Assembly: GCA_036268055.1 (NCBI GenBank)
Contig: DATAUW010000013.1
Location: 62,001-126,000, forward strand
Source of the DNA: Verrucomicrobiia bacterium
GTDB lineage: Bacteria; Verrucomicrobiota; Verrucomicrobiia; Limisphaerales; Pedosphaeraceae
DNA length: 64,000 nt
Direction: 5' to 3'
Shown: one piece after another, positions 41,217 through 51,373 of the stretch
Layout of the letters: every line of letters begins with the position of its first letter
Numbering within the stretch: position 1 is the first letter of the stretch
The notes under the pieces: generated by a model
What the model saw: only the letters and a program-made list of their open reading frames with translations
Database searches by the model: none
What the model was told of the DNA's origin: nothing
Translations under genes and position numbers: made by a program

Positions 41217-41848
41217 AGGTTTCGTTTTTTGGGTTGATATCGCTAACAATTGGCTTCCTTAAAGGATTTAGCGCGCGCATTCGCGCACATTCGCGCGAGC
41301 GCCAAATCTATAACCGAACCGCCGCCATCCGACGCCAAGGCCCGTGCCTGCTCCCGCCTGTTTTATTTCAGCGGGGTTCGCATGATCAGGTTGCGCAAAT
41401 TTCATATCGGAATACTTGCCGGGACCGCGGCCCACCCAAGGCGAACAACATTTAACGAGTGAATTGTTTAAACATATATATATTGATACTTACAAAATCA
41501 AGCTTTTTCTAAAAATTTATTGGCACCGCTTTTCCGGCCCCGGAATCCGGCGGGTTTTTTGCGAGACCATTTGCCTCCCTGGACAGTGGCGGACCGCGCC
41601 TCGGGAAAGATCAGGATTCAACGCCTGCCCTGCCCGTCACGAAATGAAATGCGCGATATTCTCAAGCGGGCCGCGCGCTTCTTCATCCCGCCAAGAGCTT
41701 GAAAATGGCGCAAAGATCCATCCTCCCCCGGTATTTTTATTTTTACCGGAGGGTCTCGGACGCGTTTTTGCCGCGTGGCCCAGGTTGCCTTTCCATCTCA
41801 ATTTTTTTCGGATTGACAATTTTTATTTAATTGTCTATACAATTAAAT
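41217..41848. other. Divergent intergenic region of the mannoside island
   Basis: 632 bases between the divergent transcription units. Apart from the two operator/promoter sites listed separately, it contains an inverted repeat CCGGTA/TACCGG around an AT-rich loop near 41730-41755. No convincing gene is visible. Confidence 0.55.
41464..41501 (-). promoter_or_regulatory. Promoter with overlapping GntR-type operator for the minus-strand series
   Basis: On the minus strand TTGATT (41496-41501) and TATATG (41473-41478) are 17 bases apart. The second box runs into GTTTAAAC, a HutC-type GTnTAnAC core (TTGTTTAAACAT on the plus strand, 41464-41475). The arrangement puts the operator over the start site, as expected for repression. 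It would drive the LamG/Ig gene at 41216. Confidence 0.5.
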
Positions 41849-41849
41849 A
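41813..41849 (+). promoter_or_regulatory. gntR promoter with 26-bp palindromic operator
   Basis: TTGACA (41813-41818), a 17-base spacer and TATACA (41836-41841) form a near-consensus promoter. Positions 41824-41849 are a palindrome with a single mismatched pair, centred on TTGTCTATACAA, a GntR/HutC GTnTAnAC core. The operator covers the -10 box, and the start codon ATG begins at 41849, so transcription would start almost at the start codon. Confidence 0.7.
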
Positions 41850-42583
41850 TGCTTTCGATTGACCACAAAAGTGCCTTGCCTCTGCGCGCGCAGGTTGAAG
41901 CTTTGCTGCGCGACCTGGTTCGCCAAGCCAATTATCAAAGAGGCGATTTGCTGCCGGATGAAATTACTCTCGCGGCGCAATTAGGCGTCAGCCGCGGCAC
42001 GGTCCGGTCCGGCATCAGCAAGTTGGTTTTTGAGGGCATCCTCGAACGGAAGGCCGGCGTCGGCACGCGCGCTTCCGGCCAGCAGCCTGAATCGGGAATA
42101 AAAGAGTGGCGCAGCTTTACACGCGAAATGGCCTCCAAAGGGATCACCGTGCAGAATTTCAGCATCAAATATCAGCAAGCGAAAGCGACCGAAGCCGCCG
42201 CCCAAGCCCTGCAACTGGACGAGGGCACGCCGATCTTGCGCCTGGAGCGGGTGCGCGGATGGAACGATCAGCCCGTTCTCCATTCGACCTCGTGGTTCCA
42301 TCCCCGGCTTAAATTATCCGGTGATGAGCAGATCAACCTGCCCCTTTACGAAATGCTGGAAAAGCACACAGGAGTGCGCCCGCACCATGCCAGGGAGGAA
42401 TTTCTGGCAGTCAGCGCCGAAACGCGGATCGCCCGGTTGCTTCGGGTGAACCGCGGCACACCGCTTTTGCTTCGCCGCCACACCGTTTATGATCCGGGAA
42501 ACCGGCCGTTTGAATTTGCGGAAGTCTGCTACGTCAGTTCTCGCTTCACGCTTTCGCTGGATATGCGCCGCAGCGAACCATGA
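41849..42583 (+). CDS. GntR-family (HutC subgroup) transcriptional regulator
   Basis: 244 residues from ATG 41849; an upstream TTG at 41831 in frame lies within the operator and is rejected. The winged-helix domain is at about 10-75, with LPDEITLAAQLGVSRGTVRS as the recognition region and GILERKAGVGTRA as the wing. The UTRA ligand domain fills the rest (RLERVRGWNDQPVLHSTSWF, YEMLEKHTGVRPHHA, LLRRHTVYDPGNRPFEFAEV), typical of sugar-phosphate-sensing HutC members. It is coupled by ATGA to a ROK kinase and an isomerase. The effector is probably a mannose-related sugar phosphate, and the targets probably the genes next to the three operator-like sites. Confidence 0.9.
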   Translation: MLSIDHKSALPLRAQVEALLRDLVRQANYQRGDLLPDEITLAAQLGVSRGTVRSGISKLVFEGILERKAGVGTRASGQQPESGIKEWRSFTREMASKGITVQNFSIKYQQAKATEAAAQALQLDEGTPILRLERVRGWNDQPVLHSTSWFHPRLKLSGDEQINLPLYEMLEKHTGVRPHHAREEFLAVSAETRIARLLRVNRGTPLLLRRHTVYDPGNRPFEFAEVCYVSSRFTLSLDMRRSEP

Positions 42584-43521
42584 AAACGATGGCCGTTGAT
42601 TTCGGCGGGCGGCGCATCAAACTTGGCTTGATTTGCAATGGAACAGTTTTGGCGCAAAAAATCATTGCCGCCCAGGCTGAGAAACCTTTGCGAGACCGCC
42701 TTGATTCATTGGCCGACGCGCTTCACCAACTCTGCGCCGATGCGGGAACAACGGCTCGCGAGTGCGATGGGCTGGCGATCGCGTATCCCAGCATTATTGA
42801 CACGGCCAACGCGCGTATCCTGGATCACTTTGGCAAATTCAGCGACGGCAGTTCGTTTAATTTTCGCGAATGGGCTGAACGCACTTTTGGATTGCCCCTG
42901 GCAATGGACAATGATGCCCGCATGGCACTCATCGGCGAATGGCGTTATGGAGAATGGAACGACTGCAATGATATCGTGATGATCACCCTTGGCACCGGGA
43001 TCGGCGTTTCGGCGGTGCTGGGAGGCCAAGTGATGCGCGGGGCGCATGGCCAGGCCGGAATTCTCGGCGGACATATTACCGTCAATCACCTTGGCCGCGC
43101 TTGCATTTGCGGAAATATCGGCTGTGCGGAAGCGGAGGCCTCCACTTCCGTGCTGGAAAAAAAGTTCCGGGAAAAGGCAACGCACGCGAACATAATTCCC
43201 GAAGAATCACTGGTGGATTATGCGGCGGTTTTTCGTCTCGCGTCCGAGGGTGATCCGCGGGCCAAGGCCCTGGCCGACCATAGCGTCCAGGTTTGGTCCG
43301 CATTGGCGGTGAGTTTGATCCATGTATTCGATCCGGAATTATTGATTATGGGCGGCGGAGTCATGGGCAGCGCGGACCTCATTTTGCCGCAGATCCAGGA
43401 TTACGTAAATCGCCACGCCCACACGCCGTGGGGCAAAGTGACCGTGGCCGCTTCGTCTCTGGGCGAAAAGGCCGCCCTGCTGGCCGGTGAATGGTTGTTG
43501 GAGGATTACCTGGCGGCATGA
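42580..43521 (+). CDS. ROK-family sugar kinase
   Basis: 313 residues. The N-terminal phosphate-binding segment is AVDFGGRRIKLGL. The ROK zinc site is visible: GGHITV, followed by CICGNIGCAE, the family's CxCGxxGCxE pattern. The active-site region is AMDNDARMALIGEW, with the catalytic Asp expected in NDA, and the second phosphate motif is VMITLGTGIGVSAVLGG. ROK kinases phosphorylate glucose, fructose, mannose or amino sugars. Coupling to a mannose-6-phosphate isomerase suggests mannose (or fructose) kinase activity. The gene overlaps gntR and the next gene by ATGA. Confidence 0.9.
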   Translation: MKTMAVDFGGRRIKLGLICNGTVLAQKIIAAQAEKPLRDRLDSLADALHQLCADAGTTARECDGLAIAYPSIIDTANARILDHFGKFSDGSSFNFREWAERTFGLPLAMDNDARMALIGEWRYGEWNDCNDIVMITLGTGIGVSAVLGGQVMRGAHGQAGILGGHITVNHLGRACICGNIGCAEAEASTSVLEKKFREKATHANIIPEESLVDYAAVFRLASEGDPRAKALADHSVQVWSALAVSLIHVFDPELLIMGGGVMGSADLILPQIQDYVNRHAHTPWGKVTVAASSLGEKAALLAGEWLLEDYLAA

Positions 43522-45269
43522 AATCCAATTACGATAAATTCCCGGTGGTGGCGGTACCGGGCGCCGCAGGCGAATGCGTCGCCGGATGGGACGGCTGCAC
43601 CGAACGATTGCGGCAAGCGATTACCCAAAGATCCGCGCGCCGGACGGTTTTGTTGATTGATTGTTACCCCGGCGTGAATGAAACGGAGTTGCTGGAGCGC
43701 TTGGCAATTTCTTTGTCCGCCAAATTGGTTTTGCGCGCCAGCGAGGCCATGTTGTCTCACTCTACGATAGAATCGCTGGTTGCCCCGTTTCTTCGCGAAA
43801 ATGAACCGGTTTTCGGTTTTCTAGCCGACCTGACTCTCGAAAAATTTTTCGACAGTGAAAAAATTCAAGCGTTGAAACGGCAAGTGGCGCAAACGACCGA
43901 GGGGTTGATATTAATCGTTGGCTGCGGCGCCCGCCTGCTCGCCGACGGTGACATCTTGGTTTACGCAGATTTGGCGCGCTGGGAGATCCAACAGCGTTTT
44001 CGCCGGAATGAAATCGGCAATTTAGGTGTTCCAAACCGGCTTGAGCCAGCCAGCATAAAGTATCGCCGCGCGTTTTTTGTGGATTGGCGCGTGGCGGATC
44101 GTTGGAAGCGCGACCTGATCGGCGCGTGCGACTTCATGCTGGATACCAACCAACCGTCCCAGCCGAAACTTGCCAGCGGGAAAGCCGTGCGGAGCGGATT
44201 GCGACACGCTGTGACGAGGCCATTTCGCGTGGTGCCTTTTTTTGACCCGGCACCGTGGGGCGGCCAATGGATGAAACAAAAATTTGACCTCGATCCAAGC
44301 AATCCAAACTATGGCTGGTGCTTCGACTGCGTGCCGGAGGAGAACAGCCTTTTGCTTGGCTTTGACAACATCCATTTTGAAACTCCCGCGCTTAATTTGG
44401 TTTTTGATCAGCCACTGGGTTTATTGGGCGCGGCGGTTTACGCGCGATTCGGCGCAGAATTTCCCATTCGCTTTGATTTGCTGGATACTATGGGCGGCGG
44501 AAATCTTTCGTTTCAGGTGCATCCGCTGGCTGAATATATCCAAAAACATTTTGGCATGCCCTACACGCAGGACGAAAGCTACTACCTCCTCGACGCCGGT
44601 TCGAATGCAAAAGTCTATCTCGGCCTTGGCAGCGGGATTGATTCGCCATCCATGTTGCGCGATCTAAAGGCGGCCCAAAATGGCCAATGCCCCTTCCCAG
44701 TCGAGAAATATGCACAATCGTGGCCCGCCAAAAAGCATGATCATTATTTGATTCCGGCGGGGACCGTGCATTGTTCCGGCGCGAATTCCATGGTGTTGGA
44801 GATCAGCGCCACGCCCTATATTTTCACGTTTAAAATGTGGGACTGGGGCCGCATGGGCCTGGATGGCCACCCCCGTCCGATTCACTTGCAGCATGGTATT
44901 GACAACATTAATTGGGAGCGCACCCCACTTTGGGTGAAGCGCAATTTGATTAATCACATCCGGCCTTTGGCGTCGGGCGAAGGCTGGCGTGAGGAAGCCA
45001 CCGGACTGCAGGAAGGACACTTCATTGAAACGCGGCGGCATTGGTTTGACCGAAAGGTAACCCACGATACGAAAGGCACTGTAAATGTTCTCAACCTGGT
45101 GCAGGGAGACGAAGCAGTGGTGGAAAGTCCCGATAACGCTTTTGCTCCTTTCACAGTTCACTATGCTGAAACTTTCATTGTGCCCGCCCAGGTGGGACCC
45201 TATTCCATCCGGCCGCAGCATGAATCGGCTACCTCAAATTATGCGACTATGAAGGCATTTGTGCGGTGA
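43518..45269 (+). CDS. Class I mannose-6-phosphate isomerase with degenerate P-loop N-terminal domain
   Basis: 583 residues from ATG 43518, which overlaps the ROK stop codon (ATGA). Residues about 1-235 look like a nucleoside-kinase-like fold: TVLLIDCYPGVNETELLERL sits where a Walker A would be but lacks GKT. Residues about 240-583 are a class I phosphomannose isomerase: RVVPFFDPAPWGG, then the metal site Gln333 and His335 (NLSFQVHPLAE), Glu353 (QDESYYLL) and His418 (AGTVHCSGANSMVLEIS). The enzyme converts mannose-6-phosphate to fructose-6-phosphate. This long two-domain form is a known variant; the role of the N-terminal part is unknown to me. Confidence 0.88.
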   Translation: MKSNYDKFPVVAVPGAAGECVAGWDGCTERLRQAITQRSARRTVLLIDCYPGVNETELLERLAISLSAKLVLRASEAMLSHSTIESLVAPFLRENEPVFGFLADLTLEKFFDSEKIQALKRQVAQTTEGLILIVGCGARLLADGDILVYADLARWEIQQRFRRNEIGNLGVPNRLEPASIKYRRAFFVDWRVADRWKRDLIGACDFMLDTNQPSQPKLASGKAVRSGLRHAVTRPFRVVPFFDPAPWGGQWMKQKFDLDPSNPNYGWCFDCVPEENSLLLGFDNIHFETPALNLVFDQPLGLLGAAVYARFGAEFPIRFDLLDTMGGGNLSFQVHPLAEYIQKHFGMPYTQDESYYLLDAGSNAKVYLGLGSGIDSPSMLRDLKAAQNGQCPFPVEKYAQSWPAKKHDHYLIPAGTVHCSGANSMVLEISATPYIFTFKMWDWGRMGLDGHPRPIHLQHGIDNINWERTPLWVKRNLINHIRPLASGEGWREEATGLQEGHFIETRRHWFDRKVTHDTKGTVNVLNLVQGDEAVVESPDNAFAPFTVHYAETFIVPAQVGPYSIRPQHESATSNYATMKAFVR

Positions 45270-45690: not shown

Positions 45691-47121
45691 TTACTTCATC
45701 GCTTCGCGTTCGACTTCTTCCCAGCCGCCGCCCAGGGCTTTGTAGAGGGCGATCAAATCTACGCTGACGGTGCGGTCGCTTTGGACCAGGGCATCCTGGG
45801 CTTCGTAAAGTGAGCGTTGCGAGTCGAGCACCCGGAGAAAATCCGCCAATCCATTTTTGTAAAGCTGGTTGGCGATGTCCACTGCGTTTTGATTGGCGGT
45901 CACGGCTTCGATCAATGATTGGCGGCGGATTTGTTCCTTCGCGTAAGCGACCAAGGCGCCTTCGACATCCTGGAACGCGCCGAGGACGGCTTGTTCATAG
46001 GTGGCGAGCGCTTGTTCTTCGCGTGCGTTTTGAACTTTCACATTGGAACGGATGCGGCCGCCATCGAATATTCGCCATTGCGCCGTCGGACCGATGGACC
46101 AGAAACGGCTGCCGCCAGTGAACCAATCGCTGGCGCTGACGCTTTGCAATCCAGCGTCGCCGGTGAGCGAGAATTTTGGAAAATAATCTGCGACGGCCAC
46201 GCCGATGCGCGCATTTGAGGCCGCGAGTTGCCGTTCCGCGCGGCGAATGTCGGGACGGCGGCGCAGCAAATCAGCGGGCAAACCGATCGGCACTTGCGGC
46301 GGCACGGAGGGTATGGGTTGTTCGGCGGATAATTCTTCGAGCAAGGTCCCGGGCCGCTGGCCGATGAGAACGTCGAGACGGTAAGTTGACTGGCGAAATC
46401 CGGTTTCGAGCGTCGGGACTTGTGCCTGAGTCGTCGAAAGCAACGCCGCGGCTTGCTGGACGTCGAGATCACTCGTCAGGCCGGACTTAAAACGGTCGCG
46501 GGTAAGTTCAAGGACGTCCTGTTGCGCTTTAATATTTTGTTGGACGATGGCGATTTCCTTTTGAAATCCGCGGGCCTCGACGTAGCTGCGCGCGACGTCG
46601 CCGAGCAATGACACAAGCACATCCCGCCGGCCAAATTCCGCCGCGCCAATTTCGGCCGTCGCCGCTTCCACCGCGCGGCGCGTGCCGCCGAATACATCTA
46701 TTTCCCACCTCGCGTCAAAGCCCGCCTGATAAACATTTGCTTCGAGCGGTTCACCCGGCGGGAATTCAGGAAAACCATTTCCACTCAAGCGCTCGCGTGT
46801 ATAGGAGCCGCTGGCATTGGCCGTGGGCCAAAAATCCGCCGCGACTACGCCGCGCGCCGCCCGCTCTTCGTGGACGCGCGCCGTGGCGACGCGCAAGTTC
46901 AGGTTTGAATGCACCGCGCGGGCGATGAGCGAATCAATTTCCGGATCGTGAAAGGTTTTCCACCAGTTGGTATCGGTCATCGGCGCATTCGTGGTTCCTC
47001 CGGCCAAGGGCGATGCCCATTCCGCGTGCGTGTCCGTTTTGGGCGGATGATAATCGGGCCCCACGCTGCAACCTGCGGCGAAAATCAATGATGCTGCGAC
47101 GATGAATAAAATCGCTTTCAT
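45691..47121 (-). CDS. Outer-membrane efflux lipoprotein (NodT/TolC family)
   Basis: 476 residues from ATG 47121, which overlaps the preceding stop (ATGA) and leads into a lipoprotein signal, IVAASLIFAAGCSVGPDYHPP, with lipidated Cys18; the upstream open frame is not used. The GCSVGPDYxPP start is the hallmark of NodT-type outer-membrane factors. Two helical repeats follow, with RWEIDVFGGTRRAVEAATAE and QWRIFDGGRIRSNVKVQNAR at equivalent positions and ADYFPKFSLTGDAG in the beta-barrel region. It is the exit duct for the EmrA/EmrB-like pair encoded upstream. It is the last gene of the operon. Confidence 0.92.
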   Translation of the reverse strand: MKAILFIVAASLIFAAGCSVGPDYHPPKTDTHAEWASPLAGGTTNAPMTDTNWWKTFHDPEIDSLIARAVHSNLNLRVATARVHEERAARGVVAADFWPTANASGSYTRERLSGNGFPEFPPGEPLEANVYQAGFDARWEIDVFGGTRRAVEAATAEIGAAEFGRRDVLVSLLGDVARSYVEARGFQKEIAIVQQNIKAQQDVLELTRDRFKSGLTSDLDVQQAAALLSTTQAQVPTLETGFRQSTYRLDVLIGQRPGTLLEELSAEQPIPSVPPQVPIGLPADLLRRRPDIRRAERQLAASNARIGVAVADYFPKFSLTGDAGLQSVSASDWFTGGSRFWSIGPTAQWRIFDGGRIRSNVKVQNAREEQALATYEQAVLGAFQDVEGALVAYAKEQIRRQSLIEAVTANQNAVDIANQLYKNGLADFLRVLDSQRSLYEAQDALVQSDRTVSVDLIALYKALGGGWEEVEREAMK

Positions 47122-47756
47122 GATTTGATAGCGGCTTCGCGCTGGTTGGCTTGATCCATCAAATGCAGGATCGTCTCCACGGTGGCATCGTCTCCAATGG
47201 AAGTGTTGAGCATGCAATCGTAGAGCGGGCGCGACGGCCACTGCACTCCAAAATAATGTTTGATGAATTCCGCGCGCTCCGCATCCACGTTGTCCACGAG
47301 GTCCACGGCTTTGGCTTCATCTTTTACGTCTCCCATCACCCGATGAAACCGGTAATCGCGTGGCGCGTAAAGGAACACACAGTATTTGTCGTGCCGTTTG
47401 CGCAAATAATAAGGCGCGGCCCGGCCGACGATCACGCAGTTGCCCGCCTCTGCCGCTTCTTCGAGAACTTTTTTTGTAAAATGAATCAGGCAATCCGAAT
47501 CGAGCACATCGGCATCCACAAATTCCACGCTGCGCTCGTGGCTGCCGCGCCAGAAAACTTTACTCAAACGGTACAGCCACGGGTCCATGCGTTCCTGGCG
47601 TTTCGCGCAATCTTCAGGCGAAACCTTGGCGAGCCGGGCAATGGACTCGGTCAGTTGCTGGTCGAGCAATTTCCAGCCGAGCCGTTGCGCGGCTTTTTCC
47701 GCGATAACGCTGCCGCCGGCTCCGTATTCCCGTTCGATGACCAAAATGCGTTTCAT
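47118..47756 (-). CDS. Cytidylate-kinase-like protein
   Basis: 212 residues. The N-terminus ILVIEREYGAGGSVIAEKAA has a P-loop-like GAGG sequence, followed by LGWKLLDQQLTESIARLAKV; this is the pattern of the cytidylate-kinase-like family (AAA-type NMP-kinase fold). A second conserved stretch is NCVIVGRAAPYYLRKRHDKY and then VFLYAPRDYRFHRVM, close to the DADVF-like and RxxR motifs of CMP kinases. The C-terminus contains YDCMLNTSIGDDATVETILH, also typical. Substrate is unknown, and standard housekeeping Cmk differs. It is placed between the EmrB-like transporter and the outer-membrane factor and is coupled to the latter by ATGA. Confidence 0.85.
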   Translation of the reverse strand: MKRILVIEREYGAGGSVIAEKAAQRLGWKLLDQQLTESIARLAKVSPEDCAKRQERMDPWLYRLSKVFWRGSHERSVEFVDADVLDSDCLIHFTKKVLEEAAEAGNCVIVGRAAPYYLRKRHDKYCVFLYAPRDYRFHRVMGDVKDEAKAVDLVDNVDAERAEFIKHYFGVQWPSRPLYDCMLNTSIGDDATVETILHLMDQANQREAAIKS

Positions 47757-47788: not shown

Positions 47789-49381
47789 TTAATGCACCGC
47801 CACTGGGCGTCCGCCTTTCACGTTTTTTAACAGCAACACGCCAACGATCGAAATGCCGCACACCCACGCGATGACATAGAATAATTGCATGAAGGCCCAG
47901 TAGTCGGCTTGTTGCAGCACCAAATTATAAATCGAGGCTTGCGCCCGCTGAAGCGCGTCGGGCACACCGTAACTGGCGCTGTAAACGTGCTGTGCCGCCA
48001 GCAGGCGTTGTTGATACAGCGGATTGAGCGGGGTCACCTGTCCCACCATGAAAACTTGGTGCGCCTGCGCAAATCGTTCGAGCATGGTCGAGACGAAGGA
48101 TATGCCGATGCCGCCACCGATGTTGCGCGCGAGGTTTTGAATGCCGGTGCCGCTGCCGATTTGTTCGTTGGTGAGCGTTCCCAAAGCCAGTCCGGTGAGC
48201 GGCACGAAAATAAAACCGGTGCCGAACCCATTCAGCACATTCGCCGGCACGATATTTCGCATTGAAACATCCAGCGTGAATCGGCTGAACAAAAAGCTCG
48301 CGATCCCGAAAATCAGAAAACCGAACGCCACCAAAAAACGTGGATTGACCTTTTGCACCAGCGCACCCACCAGGAACAAAGCCACGACCGCGCCCAGCCC
48401 GCGCGGGCTTACAGTGAGCCCGGAGTCCAGCGCTGTATATCCCAAGAGTGTTTGAAGAAACAAAGGTTGCAGTGTGATCAATGCGTACAAGCATGCGCCG
48501 AACATTCCAAACAGTAGACAACCGATCGCGAAATTTCGATTTTTTAGCACATGCAAATCCACAATCGGAGAGGACGTGCTCAGCGATCTCCATACGAACG
48601 TAAACATCGAGATCACCGAGATCGCCGCAAACCAGCGTATCCACAGTGCTCCAAACCAATCGTCCTGCTGCCCCTTGTCGAGAATGATTTGCAACGTCGC
48701 CAGCCAAATGCTGAGCAACCCGAAGCCAATGGCATCAAAGCGTGTTCGCTTCGCATTGCGGATGTAAGGCGGATCTTCCACAAACATGGAGATGAGAAAT
48801 ACCGCCAGCGCGCCCACCGGAATATTAATATAAAAGGACCAGCGCCACGAATAGCTGTCCGTAAGCCAGCCACCCAGCGTCGGGCCGATGATCGGCGCGC
48901 AAATCACACCGAGGCCATACACAGCCATCGCCACACCGCGTTTTGCCGGTGGAAAACTCTCGAGCAAAATAGCCTGCGCAAGCGGTTGCAACGCGCCGCC
49001 GCCCGCCCCTTGGATCACGCGCGCGAGAATCAGCATTCCGAGGTTCGTCGCCGCGCCGCACGCAAACGAGGACAGCGTAAAAATGATGATGCAGCCGATA
49101 AGAAATCGTTTACGCCCGAAATAATTTGAGAACCACGCACTCACTGGCAGCACGATCGCGTTTGAGACAAGGTAACTCGTCAGCACCCATGTTGCCTCGT
49201 CGCGGCTCGCGCCAAGGTTGCCCGCGATGTAGGGCAGCGCGACAGAGGCGATGGAAGTGTCCAGTACTTCCATGAACGTCGCGAGCATGACCGCGGCGGC
49301 GATCCACCACGGATTGACGCGTGGACGCCATTCCGCAACCGGTACGTGAATTTCCCCGGCAGTGGCGGCAGCCGCGCTCAT
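47789..49381 (-). CDS. MFS multidrug exporter, DHA2 (EmrB/QacA) family
   Basis: 530 residues with 14 predicted membrane helices. DHA2 motifs are LDTSIASVALPYIAGNLG in helix 1, WVLTSYLVSNAIVLPVSAWF, the motif A-like FGRKRFLIGC, and the motif C-like GLGVICAPIIGPTLGGWLTD. With the EmrA-like adaptor encoded before it (4-base overlap, ATGA) and the TolC-like factor encoded after it, it forms a tripartite drug exporter. Substrates are probably hydrophobic compounds; nothing in the sequence narrows this. Confidence 0.92.
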   Translation of the reverse strand: MSAAAATAGEIHVPVAEWRPRVNPWWIAAAVMLATFMEVLDTSIASVALPYIAGNLGASRDEATWVLTSYLVSNAIVLPVSAWFSNYFGRKRFLIGCIIIFTLSSFACGAATNLGMLILARVIQGAGGGALQPLAQAILLESFPPAKRGVAMAVYGLGVICAPIIGPTLGGWLTDSYSWRWSFYINIPVGALAVFLISMFVEDPPYIRNAKRTRFDAIGFGLLSIWLATLQIILDKGQQDDWFGALWIRWFAAISVISMFTFVWRSLSTSSPIVDLHVLKNRNFAIGCLLFGMFGACLYALITLQPLFLQTLLGYTALDSGLTVSPRGLGAVVALFLVGALVQKVNPRFLVAFGFLIFGIASFLFSRFTLDVSMRNIVPANVLNGFGTGFIFVPLTGLALGTLTNEQIGSGTGIQNLARNIGGGIGISFVSTMLERFAQAHQVFMVGQVTPLNPLYQQRLLAAQHVYSASYGVPDALQRAQASIYNLVLQQADYWAFMQLFYVIAWVCGISIVGVLLLKNVKGGRPVAVH

Positions 49382-50481
49382 TTCACTTTCACCTCGGGCA
49401 CGACCGACATGCCGGGCGCAATATCTAATTGCGCGTCGAGCGGTTCATCGAAAACAATTTTGACGGGAATGCGTTGAACCACTTTCACATAATTACCTAC
49501 GGCATTTTCCGCCGGCAAAAGGCTGAAGCGCGCGCCGGTTCCTGCCTGCAAACTCTGGACCTTGCCTTTGAATTTCCGCTTGGGATAGGCATCAATCGTC
49601 ATCGTGACCGGCTGGCCGGGACGCATGTTGGCTAATTGCGTTTCCTTGAAATTCGCCACGACCCAGACTTCTTTCGGCACCAGGGCGAGCAGCGATTGGC
49701 TCACTTGCAGGTAAGCCCCCTGCTCCACCGTGCGGCGGGTGACGCGCCCACTCACGGGTGCAGTGATTTTCGTGTAAGAAAGGTCGAGTTCGGCCTGGTG
49801 AAGTTTCGCCTCGGCTTGCTTGACGACGGCTTCAGCGGTCTCGGCGTTCACGCGGCTGAGCGCGACTTGCGCGTCGGCGGCTTTGGTTAGATTGGTGGCG
49901 ACATTCACGTTCGCAATCGTCACCTTGGCCTGGGCTTGCGCGAGGTCGAGTTGTGTGCCGGAAATCGCCCGCGCTTCCACGGTTGAATAGCGTTGTAAAT
50001 CCGCCTTGGCGCGGATCGCGTCGGCCTCGGACGCCGCTTCCTGCGCGCGATCCTGATCCGCCTTGGCTTGATCCACCGTGATCTGCGCTTTGGCTTGTTC
50101 GAGCTGGCCCTGCGCGGTCTTCAGGTCGGCCTGCGCCTGCGTGACTTTCGTTTCGTAATCGCTCGGATCAATTTCCACCAGCAAGTCTCCCTGCTGGACA
50201 ATTTGATTATCGTCCACCAATAGTTTCACGACCGGTCCCGAAACGCGCGGACTCACAATCGTGACGTGGTTCTCGATGAACGCATCGTCGGTGGATTCAT
50301 ACGGGGCGACGCATTGAATGTAATAAATGACGACGGCCACGATCACGATCAAGCCGACGGCGCCAAGAATAAATGGCATCTTTTTCTTTTTTATGCGTGG
50401 CGGCGGCGCGGGCGGCAAAGTGCCTGGCTCGGCTCCAGCCAAAGTAGTTTTTATTCCTGTCGCCGCTGGTTTTTCGTCCAT
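49378..50481 (-). CDS. HlyD/EmrA-family efflux adaptor
   Basis: 367 residues from ATG 50481, which has AAAGGA six bases upstream on the minus strand; an ATG at 50505 in the same frame is less well placed. A single membrane helix lies at about 30-50 (PFILGAVGLIVIVAVVIYYI). The lipoyl-like half-motif is FIENHVTIVSPRVSGPVVKL and the matching C-terminal half is LDLSYTKITAPVSGRVTRRT. A long Ala/Gln/Lys coiled coil (about 95-215) lies between them. The C-terminal barrel has WVVANFKETQLANMRPGQP, typical of EmrA. It links the inner-membrane pump to the outer-membrane factor. It is the first gene of the operon. Confidence 0.92.
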   Translation of the reverse strand: MDEKPAATGIKTTLAGAEPGTLPPAPPPRIKKKKMPFILGAVGLIVIVAVVIYYIQCVAPYESTDDAFIENHVTIVSPRVSGPVVKLLVDDNQIVQQGDLLVEIDPSDYETKVTQAQADLKTAQGQLEQAKAQITVDQAKADQDRAQEAASEADAIRAKADLQRYSTVEARAISGTQLDLAQAQAKVTIANVNVATNLTKAADAQVALSRVNAETAEAVVKQAEAKLHQAELDLSYTKITAPVSGRVTRRTVEQGAYLQVSQSLLALVPKEVWVVANFKETQLANMRPGQPVTMTIDAYPKRKFKGKVQSLQAGTGARFSLLPAENAVGNYVKVVQRIPVKIVFDEPLDAQLDIAPGMSVVPEVKVK

Positions 50482-50746
50482 CGCAGTTCCTTTCGATAAT
50501 TGCAACTACCTTAACGCATTTTATGAAAAATGAGCGGGCAAATAACGAACGGCAATAATATATGCGTCCATTTTTGTTGTATTGCGTGCCGCGACGGTCG
50601 GATGGCCGAGGCATTAGCCGGGCGCGCTTGTGCAACCCGACTCGCTGCCGATGAATACGTCCAACCCCGCGCAATGTCACGCCGAAAACATTAATCGAAT
50701 CAACTTGACGAATCTCCATGCTTCGACACGAATAACCCGGTCATCT

Positions 50747-51373
50747 ATGAAATTTCCAAAAGCTATTCTTCTCACGACCGTTGTGGCGATGGCGTTGTTC
50801 GCTCACAAGTCTTTTTCCGTTCCGCTCGATGCCGCCGCGATTGCCAGCGAACCGTCGCCCGGACTAAAGGACACCGTCGTATTGATTATTCGCCACGCTG
50901 AAAAGCCCGAAGAAGGAGCCGAGTTATCGCCCACCGGTCAGCAACGCGCCATCGCCTACGTGAACTATTTCAAGAACTTCACCGTGAATTCAAAGCCACT
51001 GCGGCCGGATTATTTGGTTGCCACAGCAGACTCGGAGAAAAGCCGCCGCCCACGTTTGACACTCTTACCGCTCGCGCAGGATCTCGGTTTGACCATTGAT
51101 AACCACGTTAAGAATAAAAATTTTGCGAACGAAGTCGAAGACCTTCGCACAACACATCACGGAAAATGCGTTCTCATCGCTTGGCATCATGAAAAAATTC
51201 CGGACCTCATTGAAGGTCTCGGCGCAGATCCAAACAAACTTTTTCCCGGTGGCAAATGGCCTTCGGGAATTTTTAACTGGGTGATCGAATTGCACTACGA
51301 TCACGAGGGACGCTTGATTCCCAGTGAGTGCAAACGCATCAACGAAAAACTTCTGCCGGGCGATTCCGATTAA
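50747..51373 (+). CDS. Exported histidine-phosphatase-family protein
   Basis: 208 residues from ATG 50747, chosen because a signal peptide follows (AILLTTVVAMALFAHKSFS); the frame is open upstream without signal features. The phosphohistidine motif is VVLIIRHAEKPEEGAELSPT, with His50 as nucleophile. The second His is expected in LIAWHHEKIPDLIE. The region between them is short, as in SixA-like or small phosphatases. The substrate is unknown; export suggests action on extracellular or periplasmic phosphoesters. It is divergent from the emr-type operon. Confidence 0.82.
   Translation: MKFPKAILLTTVVAMALFAHKSFSVPLDAAAIASEPSPGLKDTVVLIIRHAEKPEEGAELSPTGQQRAIAYVNYFKNFTVNSKPLRPDYLVATADSEKSRRPRLTLLPLAQDLGLTIDNHVKNKNFANEVEDLRTTHHGKCVLIAWHHEKIPDLIEGLGADPNKLFPGGKWPSGIFNWVIELHYDHEGRLIPSECKRINEKLLPGDSD

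Follow-up and report, generated by a model that had tools for sequence, protein, structure and literature searches.

Why should a gene resembling a cytidylate kinase lie inside an operon that is predicted, from its sequence, to encode a drug exporter? This question is raised by a stretch of 64,000 nucleotides from a Verrucomicrobiia bacterium (hereafter the window). EmrAB-TolC is usually regarded as a three-part pump, and the window operon resembles this DHA2 MFS system in holding an EmrB-type transporter, a probable EmrA-type adaptor and an outer-membrane factor, but differs from it in that a kinase-like gene is included.

A four-gene cluster on the minus strand

The cluster and the degenerate nucleotide-binding loop of the kinase-like protein are located in the window as follows.

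45691-47121, minus strand: TolC/NodT-type outer-membrane factor (PF02321 and TIGR01845)
47118-47756, minus strand: kinase-like gene with ATG start, 212 aa (ORF call and match to the profile PF13189)
47712-47732, minus strand: degenerate P-loop of the kinase-like protein, residues 9-15 (R-E-Y-G-A-G-G), set by hand against the Cmk of the same genome
47789-49381, minus strand: EmrB-type DHA2 inner-membrane transporter (TIGR00711)
49378-50481, minus strand: EmrA/HlyD-type periplasmic adaptor (HlyD-type Pfam domains)

Read along the minus strand, the genes follow each other in the order EmrA, EmrB, kinase-like gene, TolC. This order had been proposed in an earlier note on this DNA and is confirmed by the ORFs and their profile matches. 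The EmrB protein reaches 434 bits with TIGR00711 (cut-off 230) and the outer-membrane factor 421 bits with TIGR01845 (cut-off 210), PF02321 likewise scoring over its cut-off; the best model for the adaptor, TIGR00998 (EmrA/EmrK), stays at 277 bits under its cut-off of 390.8, and its HlyD-type Pfam domains score over theirs. ATGA overlaps are found at two junctions, between EmrA and EmrB and between the stop of the kinase-like gene and the start of TolC, and the gap between the kinase-like gene and the upstream EmrB gene measures 32 bp, which suggests that EmrA, EmrB, kinase and TolC share a single transcript. The overlap with TolC, also described in the earlier note, is borne out by a TolC ATG at 47121; this is most likely the true start of the ORF, for which the mechanical caller gave 45691-47241.

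With a GC content of 55.2% the kinase-like gene matches the window (54.9%), and thus gives no sign for or against horizontal transfer into this genome. On the plus strand, positions 41831-45269 hold an overlapping set of a GntR-like regulator, a ROK-like sugar kinase (both named by eye) and a 592-aa ORF without a Pfam match at E 0.001. Upstream of EmrA lies a divergent gene (50630-51373, plus strand), which is phosphatase-like by eye and likewise lacks any Pfam match at this threshold. At L048 (identical with L039) a TetR/CecR-type regulator (L048:3638-4321) heads the EmrA-EmrB-kinase-TolC cluster; none is present at that place in the window.

Recurrence of the linkage and exchange of the pump

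Relatives of the kinase-like protein at about 40-70% identity are found in Verrucomicrobia and Acidobacteria. The gene is sporadic, being present in one of eight genomes of the taxonomic family of the window and, as a close relative (E below 1e-60), in 3 of 188 genomes of its class (G000, G021, G055). A single-sequence scan of genome contigs, whose peptide patterns were too specific, gave no relative; a profile scan from a four-sequence alignment gave 19 loci, every one from a Verrucomicrobia or Acidobacteria MAG, and in most of these EmrB directly precedes the kinase. No relatives were found in the viral contigs scanned. Matches at E 1e-20 occur in 21 of 396 genomes of an Acidobacteria phylum sample, and a census of the Acidobacteria class of MAG G506 detected the kinase at E 1e-45 in 82 of 399 genomes.

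By hand count, the census listing comprises 93 kinase places, 83 of them newly examined and 10 already among earlier loci. Efflux genes belong to the same same-strand cluster in 71 of the 83 new neighbourhoods, and EmrB lies within 1.5 kb in 62; no efflux gene at all was found in 12 (L223, L225, L248, L249, L253, L268, L269, L271, L273, L277, L286, L294), among which L273 and L294 have short sequence on one side. Eight of the 10 other places of the class have EmrB (L054, L055, L058, L059, L061, L134-L136) and two do not (L053, L060). Among 29 earlier loci, a number that leaves out L064 (58 aa, cut at the contig end and also omitted from trees), 25 lie in an efflux cluster, 24 have EmrB and four show no efflux gene in the chain. 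Kinases with at least approximately 38% identity to that of the window are mostly EmrB-linked, and those below this value are not linked. The same searches yielded 25 more distant PF13189 loci, all without EmrB nearby, although in four of them the flanking sequence extends to no more than about 1.4 kb; conversely, no kinase was found within about 1.5 kb of 12 EmrB loci located elsewhere in the same genomes. EmrB genes are several per genome (about three), from which rough arithmetic gives an expected chance linkage of about 0.3%. Because the association recurs in most relatives examined, it is not due to chance; it is present in further Verrucomicrobia and many Acidobacteria, and a linkage found in no other genome, which the earlier note had considered, can be dismissed. 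The kinase-like gene is thus a conserved fourth component of an EmrAB-TolC-type operon and a regular member of it in many soil bacteria.

The order of the genes changes considerably. With T for outer-membrane factor, A for adaptor, B for EmrB, K for kinase and R for RND, the 83 census loci read TABK (29 loci), BKTA (9), TAK (7), ABK (7), BK (4), TAKB (3), KB (3), AKB (2), BKA (2) and, once each, RTAK, TABKB, TABKA, BKT and KTA, the remaining 12 being those without any efflux gene. The Verrucomicrobia loci with enough sequence show A-B-K-T (the window, L039 and L047), so that the order described in the earlier note extends to other members of this phylum, with the exception of L041. The window has a NodT-type outer-membrane factor, whereas that of Acidobacteria comes from a different lineage and usually lies at the opposite end of the cluster. 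Some clusters keep the kinase without EmrB, as T-A-K. Short EmrB remnants are seen between EmrA and kinase at L237, as if EmrB were decaying and the kinase retained. At L041, which belongs to the same genome as L040, the kinase is located about 0.7 kb ahead of an RND operon in place of EmrB; at L061 RND genes follow the kinase, and at L141, one of the 25 distant loci, a PF13189 kinase lies 34 bp behind an RND pump.

When the efflux label is mapped on a tree of 137 kinases, 13 changes are required, versus a mean of 35.1 after shuffling. The kinases of the window, L046 and L047 form one supported clade with those of L039, L040 and L041. Among the EmrB proteins, those of the window, L046 and L047 cluster with acidobacterial sequences lacking a kinase neighbour, and kinase-linked EmrBs fall into separate groups. 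The shuffled gene order, the several EmrB lineages and the RND partners together indicate that the kinase stayed with export systems while the pump was exchanged. In some clusters universal stress protein genes lie between EmrB and kinase or just before EmrB (L052:4908-5798, assigned by Pfam; L057, by eye; L241, L278 and L285, by similarity). These neighbours, though few, agree with a link to cell state.

A kinase fold with an unusual nucleotide site

The kinase ORF matches PF13189 (Cytidylate_kin2) with E 2.2e-36 and 126.1 bits (cut-off 28), its sole Pfam match at E 0.001; at this threshold neither PF02224 (Cmk) nor the chloramphenicol phosphotransferase family was matched. With the (d)CMP kinase model TIGR02173 it scores 28.8 bits, well short of the curated cut-off of 102.1, and the genome encodes a full Cmk of its own elsewhere. 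Both the kinase and EmrB are without a match at E 0.001 among the anti-phage defence proteins of PADLOC-DB, and a PHROGs search matched one family, of unknown function.

The predicted structure has a mean pLDDT of 82.7, residues 57-78 falling below 50; this range takes in the conserved loop 58-74. Its closest structures are 3hdt (Z 20.3, 162 residues, rmsd 1.9) and 3fdi (Z 19.4), two solved proteins of unknown function, named putative kinase and uncharacterized, which share with it the membership in PF13189; these are followed by CMP kinases (Z 16.3 and lower, approximately 13-16) and then by other small kinases. As judged from this model, the protein has a CMP-kinase-like fold. It resembles Cmk also in Gly111-Arg112 and in the DxxR of residues 158-161 (Asp158 and Arg161), all nearly invariant in the aligned sequences, and Arg9 is invariant in all 137 rows. 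In contrast to Cmk, it lacks the Walker A lysine: this residue (position 15) is absent from all 112 near and all 25 far rows, and in the window protein a glycine takes its place, so that the loop departs from the Walker A motif GxxxxGK[ST]. Because a MAFFT alignment that contained the Cmk of this genome placed gaps at the Cmk N terminus, the position was assigned manually against that protein.

The near, efflux-linked group differs from other PF13189 proteins by hallmarks that are scarce in the far group, namely Thr36, Arg70-Gly71-Ser72-x-Glu74, Trp-Pro at 173-174 and Arg176. Position 16, one past the missing lysine, is basic in a single one of 96 efflux-linked rows, whereas 18 of the 20 distant sequences of gut type, as read by eye, have a basic residue there. 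Kinase dN/dS ranges from 0.038 to 0.140 in 13 chosen close pairs (EmrB, 0.036-0.117 in 10 pairs), and by this sequence-based measure the kinase gene is under purifying selection. Arg112, Asp158 and Arg161, which handle phosphate in NMP kinases, are retained, so that catalysis may still occur. The protein is thus maintained, with a kinase fold and a nucleotide site that is unusual and perhaps non-catalytic.

PF13189 proteins beside transporters and their possible role

Twenty distant PF13189 loci were inspected. Thirteen come from 12 of 13 plasmid records, and the other seven are from among 18 records that carry a human faecal phage label but look to us like pieces of bacterial chromosomes; not included were Lachnospira eligens NZ_CP085937, which nearly duplicates E. 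eligens, and a second E. eligens place. A transporter gene on the same strand adjoins the PF13189 gene in 13 of the 20.

E. eligens, Roseburia, Phocaeicola and Prevotella, same strand: MATE transporter
Ruminococcus albus, same strand: SLC13 transporter
Treponema, same strand: amino-acid ABC ATPase
Fusobacterium, same strand: RND pump, then a 137-aa ORF
Subdoligranulum, same strand: ECF thiamine component (ECF-S)
Three faecal records, same strand: ABC ATPases, Liv-like by eye
Fourth faecal record, same strand: pair of amino-acid ABC permeases, the second by eye
Fifth faecal record, same strand: amino-acid permease (APC), 3 bp downstream

The other seven (L298, L302, L304, L308, L309, L311, L315) have no adjacent transporter. 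Not every one of the 13 counts as an independent case, since two of the MATE cases are close relatives with 82% identity; moreover, the loci were sampled through their similarity to two query kinases, the second of which is itself MATE-linked. Two 50 kb plasmid pieces contain one named transporter among 81 listed genes, capsule and conjugation regions being a poor control. PF13189 is also found fused to a DUF6198 membrane domain (L004:730-2184 by Pfam; L005 and L012 by similarity), in genomes that we guess to be Akkermansia-like. Tentatively, and with somewhat less confidence than we attach to the window protein below, PF13189 may be a family of transporter partners, that is, lysine-less NMP-kinase folds which would act as sensors of a nucleotide in the cytosol and thereby control the adjacent transporter (EmrAB-TolC, RND, MATE, SLC13, APC, ECF or ABC, or DUF6198 in the fusions), with the window protein as the efflux-pump branch of Acidobacteria and Verrucomicrobia.

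For the window, the explanation that we favour, with a probability of about 0.5, is that the kinase-like protein works in the cytosol as a nucleotide-binding regulator or partner of the transporter and is not a drug modifier. It would bind a nucleotide or a phosphorylated ligand in the cytoplasm and contact the pump physically, and would in this way make exporter activity or assembly depend on the state of the cell; the exported drug itself would be left unmodified. This is favoured because the protein follows many kinds of transporters and lacks the Walker A lysine, whereas a drug kinase should track the drug and keep the lysine. Cytosolic transporter regulators are exemplified by GlnK, which acts on AmtB, and by RCK domains. 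The putative partner described here would resemble them as a small ligand-binding protein of the cytosol that is co-encoded with a transporter; in contrast to them, it has an unrelated fold, and one family is associated with many unrelated transporters. The stress sensor suggested in the earlier note comes nearer to this regulator or partner than its other proposal, drug modification, without being the same reading.

Drug modification followed by export would mean that the protein phosphorylates the substrate of the pump, a natural toxin or drug, and that EmrAB-TolC expels the product; chloramphenicol 3'-O-phosphotransferase is a model for such an enzyme. The NMP-kinase-like fold, the nearly invariant Arg9, Arg112, Asp158 and Arg161, and the RGSxE (residues approximately 70-74) and WP motifs, which are conserved in the efflux-linked subfamily and mostly absent from distant members, are all compatible with this. 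However, the Walker A lysine is present in 0 of 137 rows, kinases of a single clade are partnered by several EmrB lineages and by RND pumps, and some relatives are neighbours of probable importers (ECF thiamine, amino-acid ABC, amino-acid permease, SLC13), for which modifying a substrate ahead of export would make no sense. The changing pump partners thus argue against a drug kinase, which was demoted from first choice, and we consider it unlikely. Less likely still is a protein kinase or other modifying enzyme acting on the transporter itself or on a regulator: the genomic context would be the same as for a regulatory partner, and unrelated transporters could be accommodated, but the fold matches the NMP kinases that act on small molecules, and the lysine is again absent.

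That the protein is a nucleotide salvage or housekeeping enzyme merely co-transcribed with the pump is improbable. The name of PF13189, which derives from cytidylate kinase, and the weak hit with the (d)CMP kinase model point in this direction; against it stand a score far under the cut-off, the full Cmk of the same genome and the survival of the efflux linkage through changes in gene order. A linkage by chance or hitchhiking, without functional meaning, would fit the sporadic occurrence of the gene, but is highly improbable in view of EmrB linkage in 62 of 83 and 24 of 29 loci versus the roughly 0.3% expected, the low dN/dS, and the recurrence across genomes with different gene orders in the census.

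No description of the linkage between kinase and EmrAB-TolC was found in the literature searched, most subscription papers being outside its reach. The relevant passage of PMC8756737 is just an entry in a table of neighbouring genes, and the main text of PMC7806268 yielded no passage on PF13189; neither describes the linkage. The regular place of the kinase-like gene as a fourth member of EmrAB-TolC-type operons, with distant family members beside other transporters, suggests an apparently undescribed transporter partner or regulator. If true, a fourth, cytosolic member of kinase fold that is kept despite changes of order and loss of EmrB would provide a new handle on the control of the pump. 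If the pattern holds for the family, many proteins named after cytidylate kinase would really be transporter partners, a role that is directly testable in cultivated gut bacteria.

Further observations concern distant members of the family. The 137-aa ORF of Fusobacterium (L303:2071-2484), which has no Pfam match, sits between the RND pump and the PF13189 kinase. At L139, L144 and L149 a more distant acidobacterial PF13189 group is found near a gene that is MutS2-like by eye. At L141 a single 1472-aa ORF (L141:7667-12085) encodes, according to Pfam, an AcrB-type RND pump fused with an outer-membrane efflux domain.
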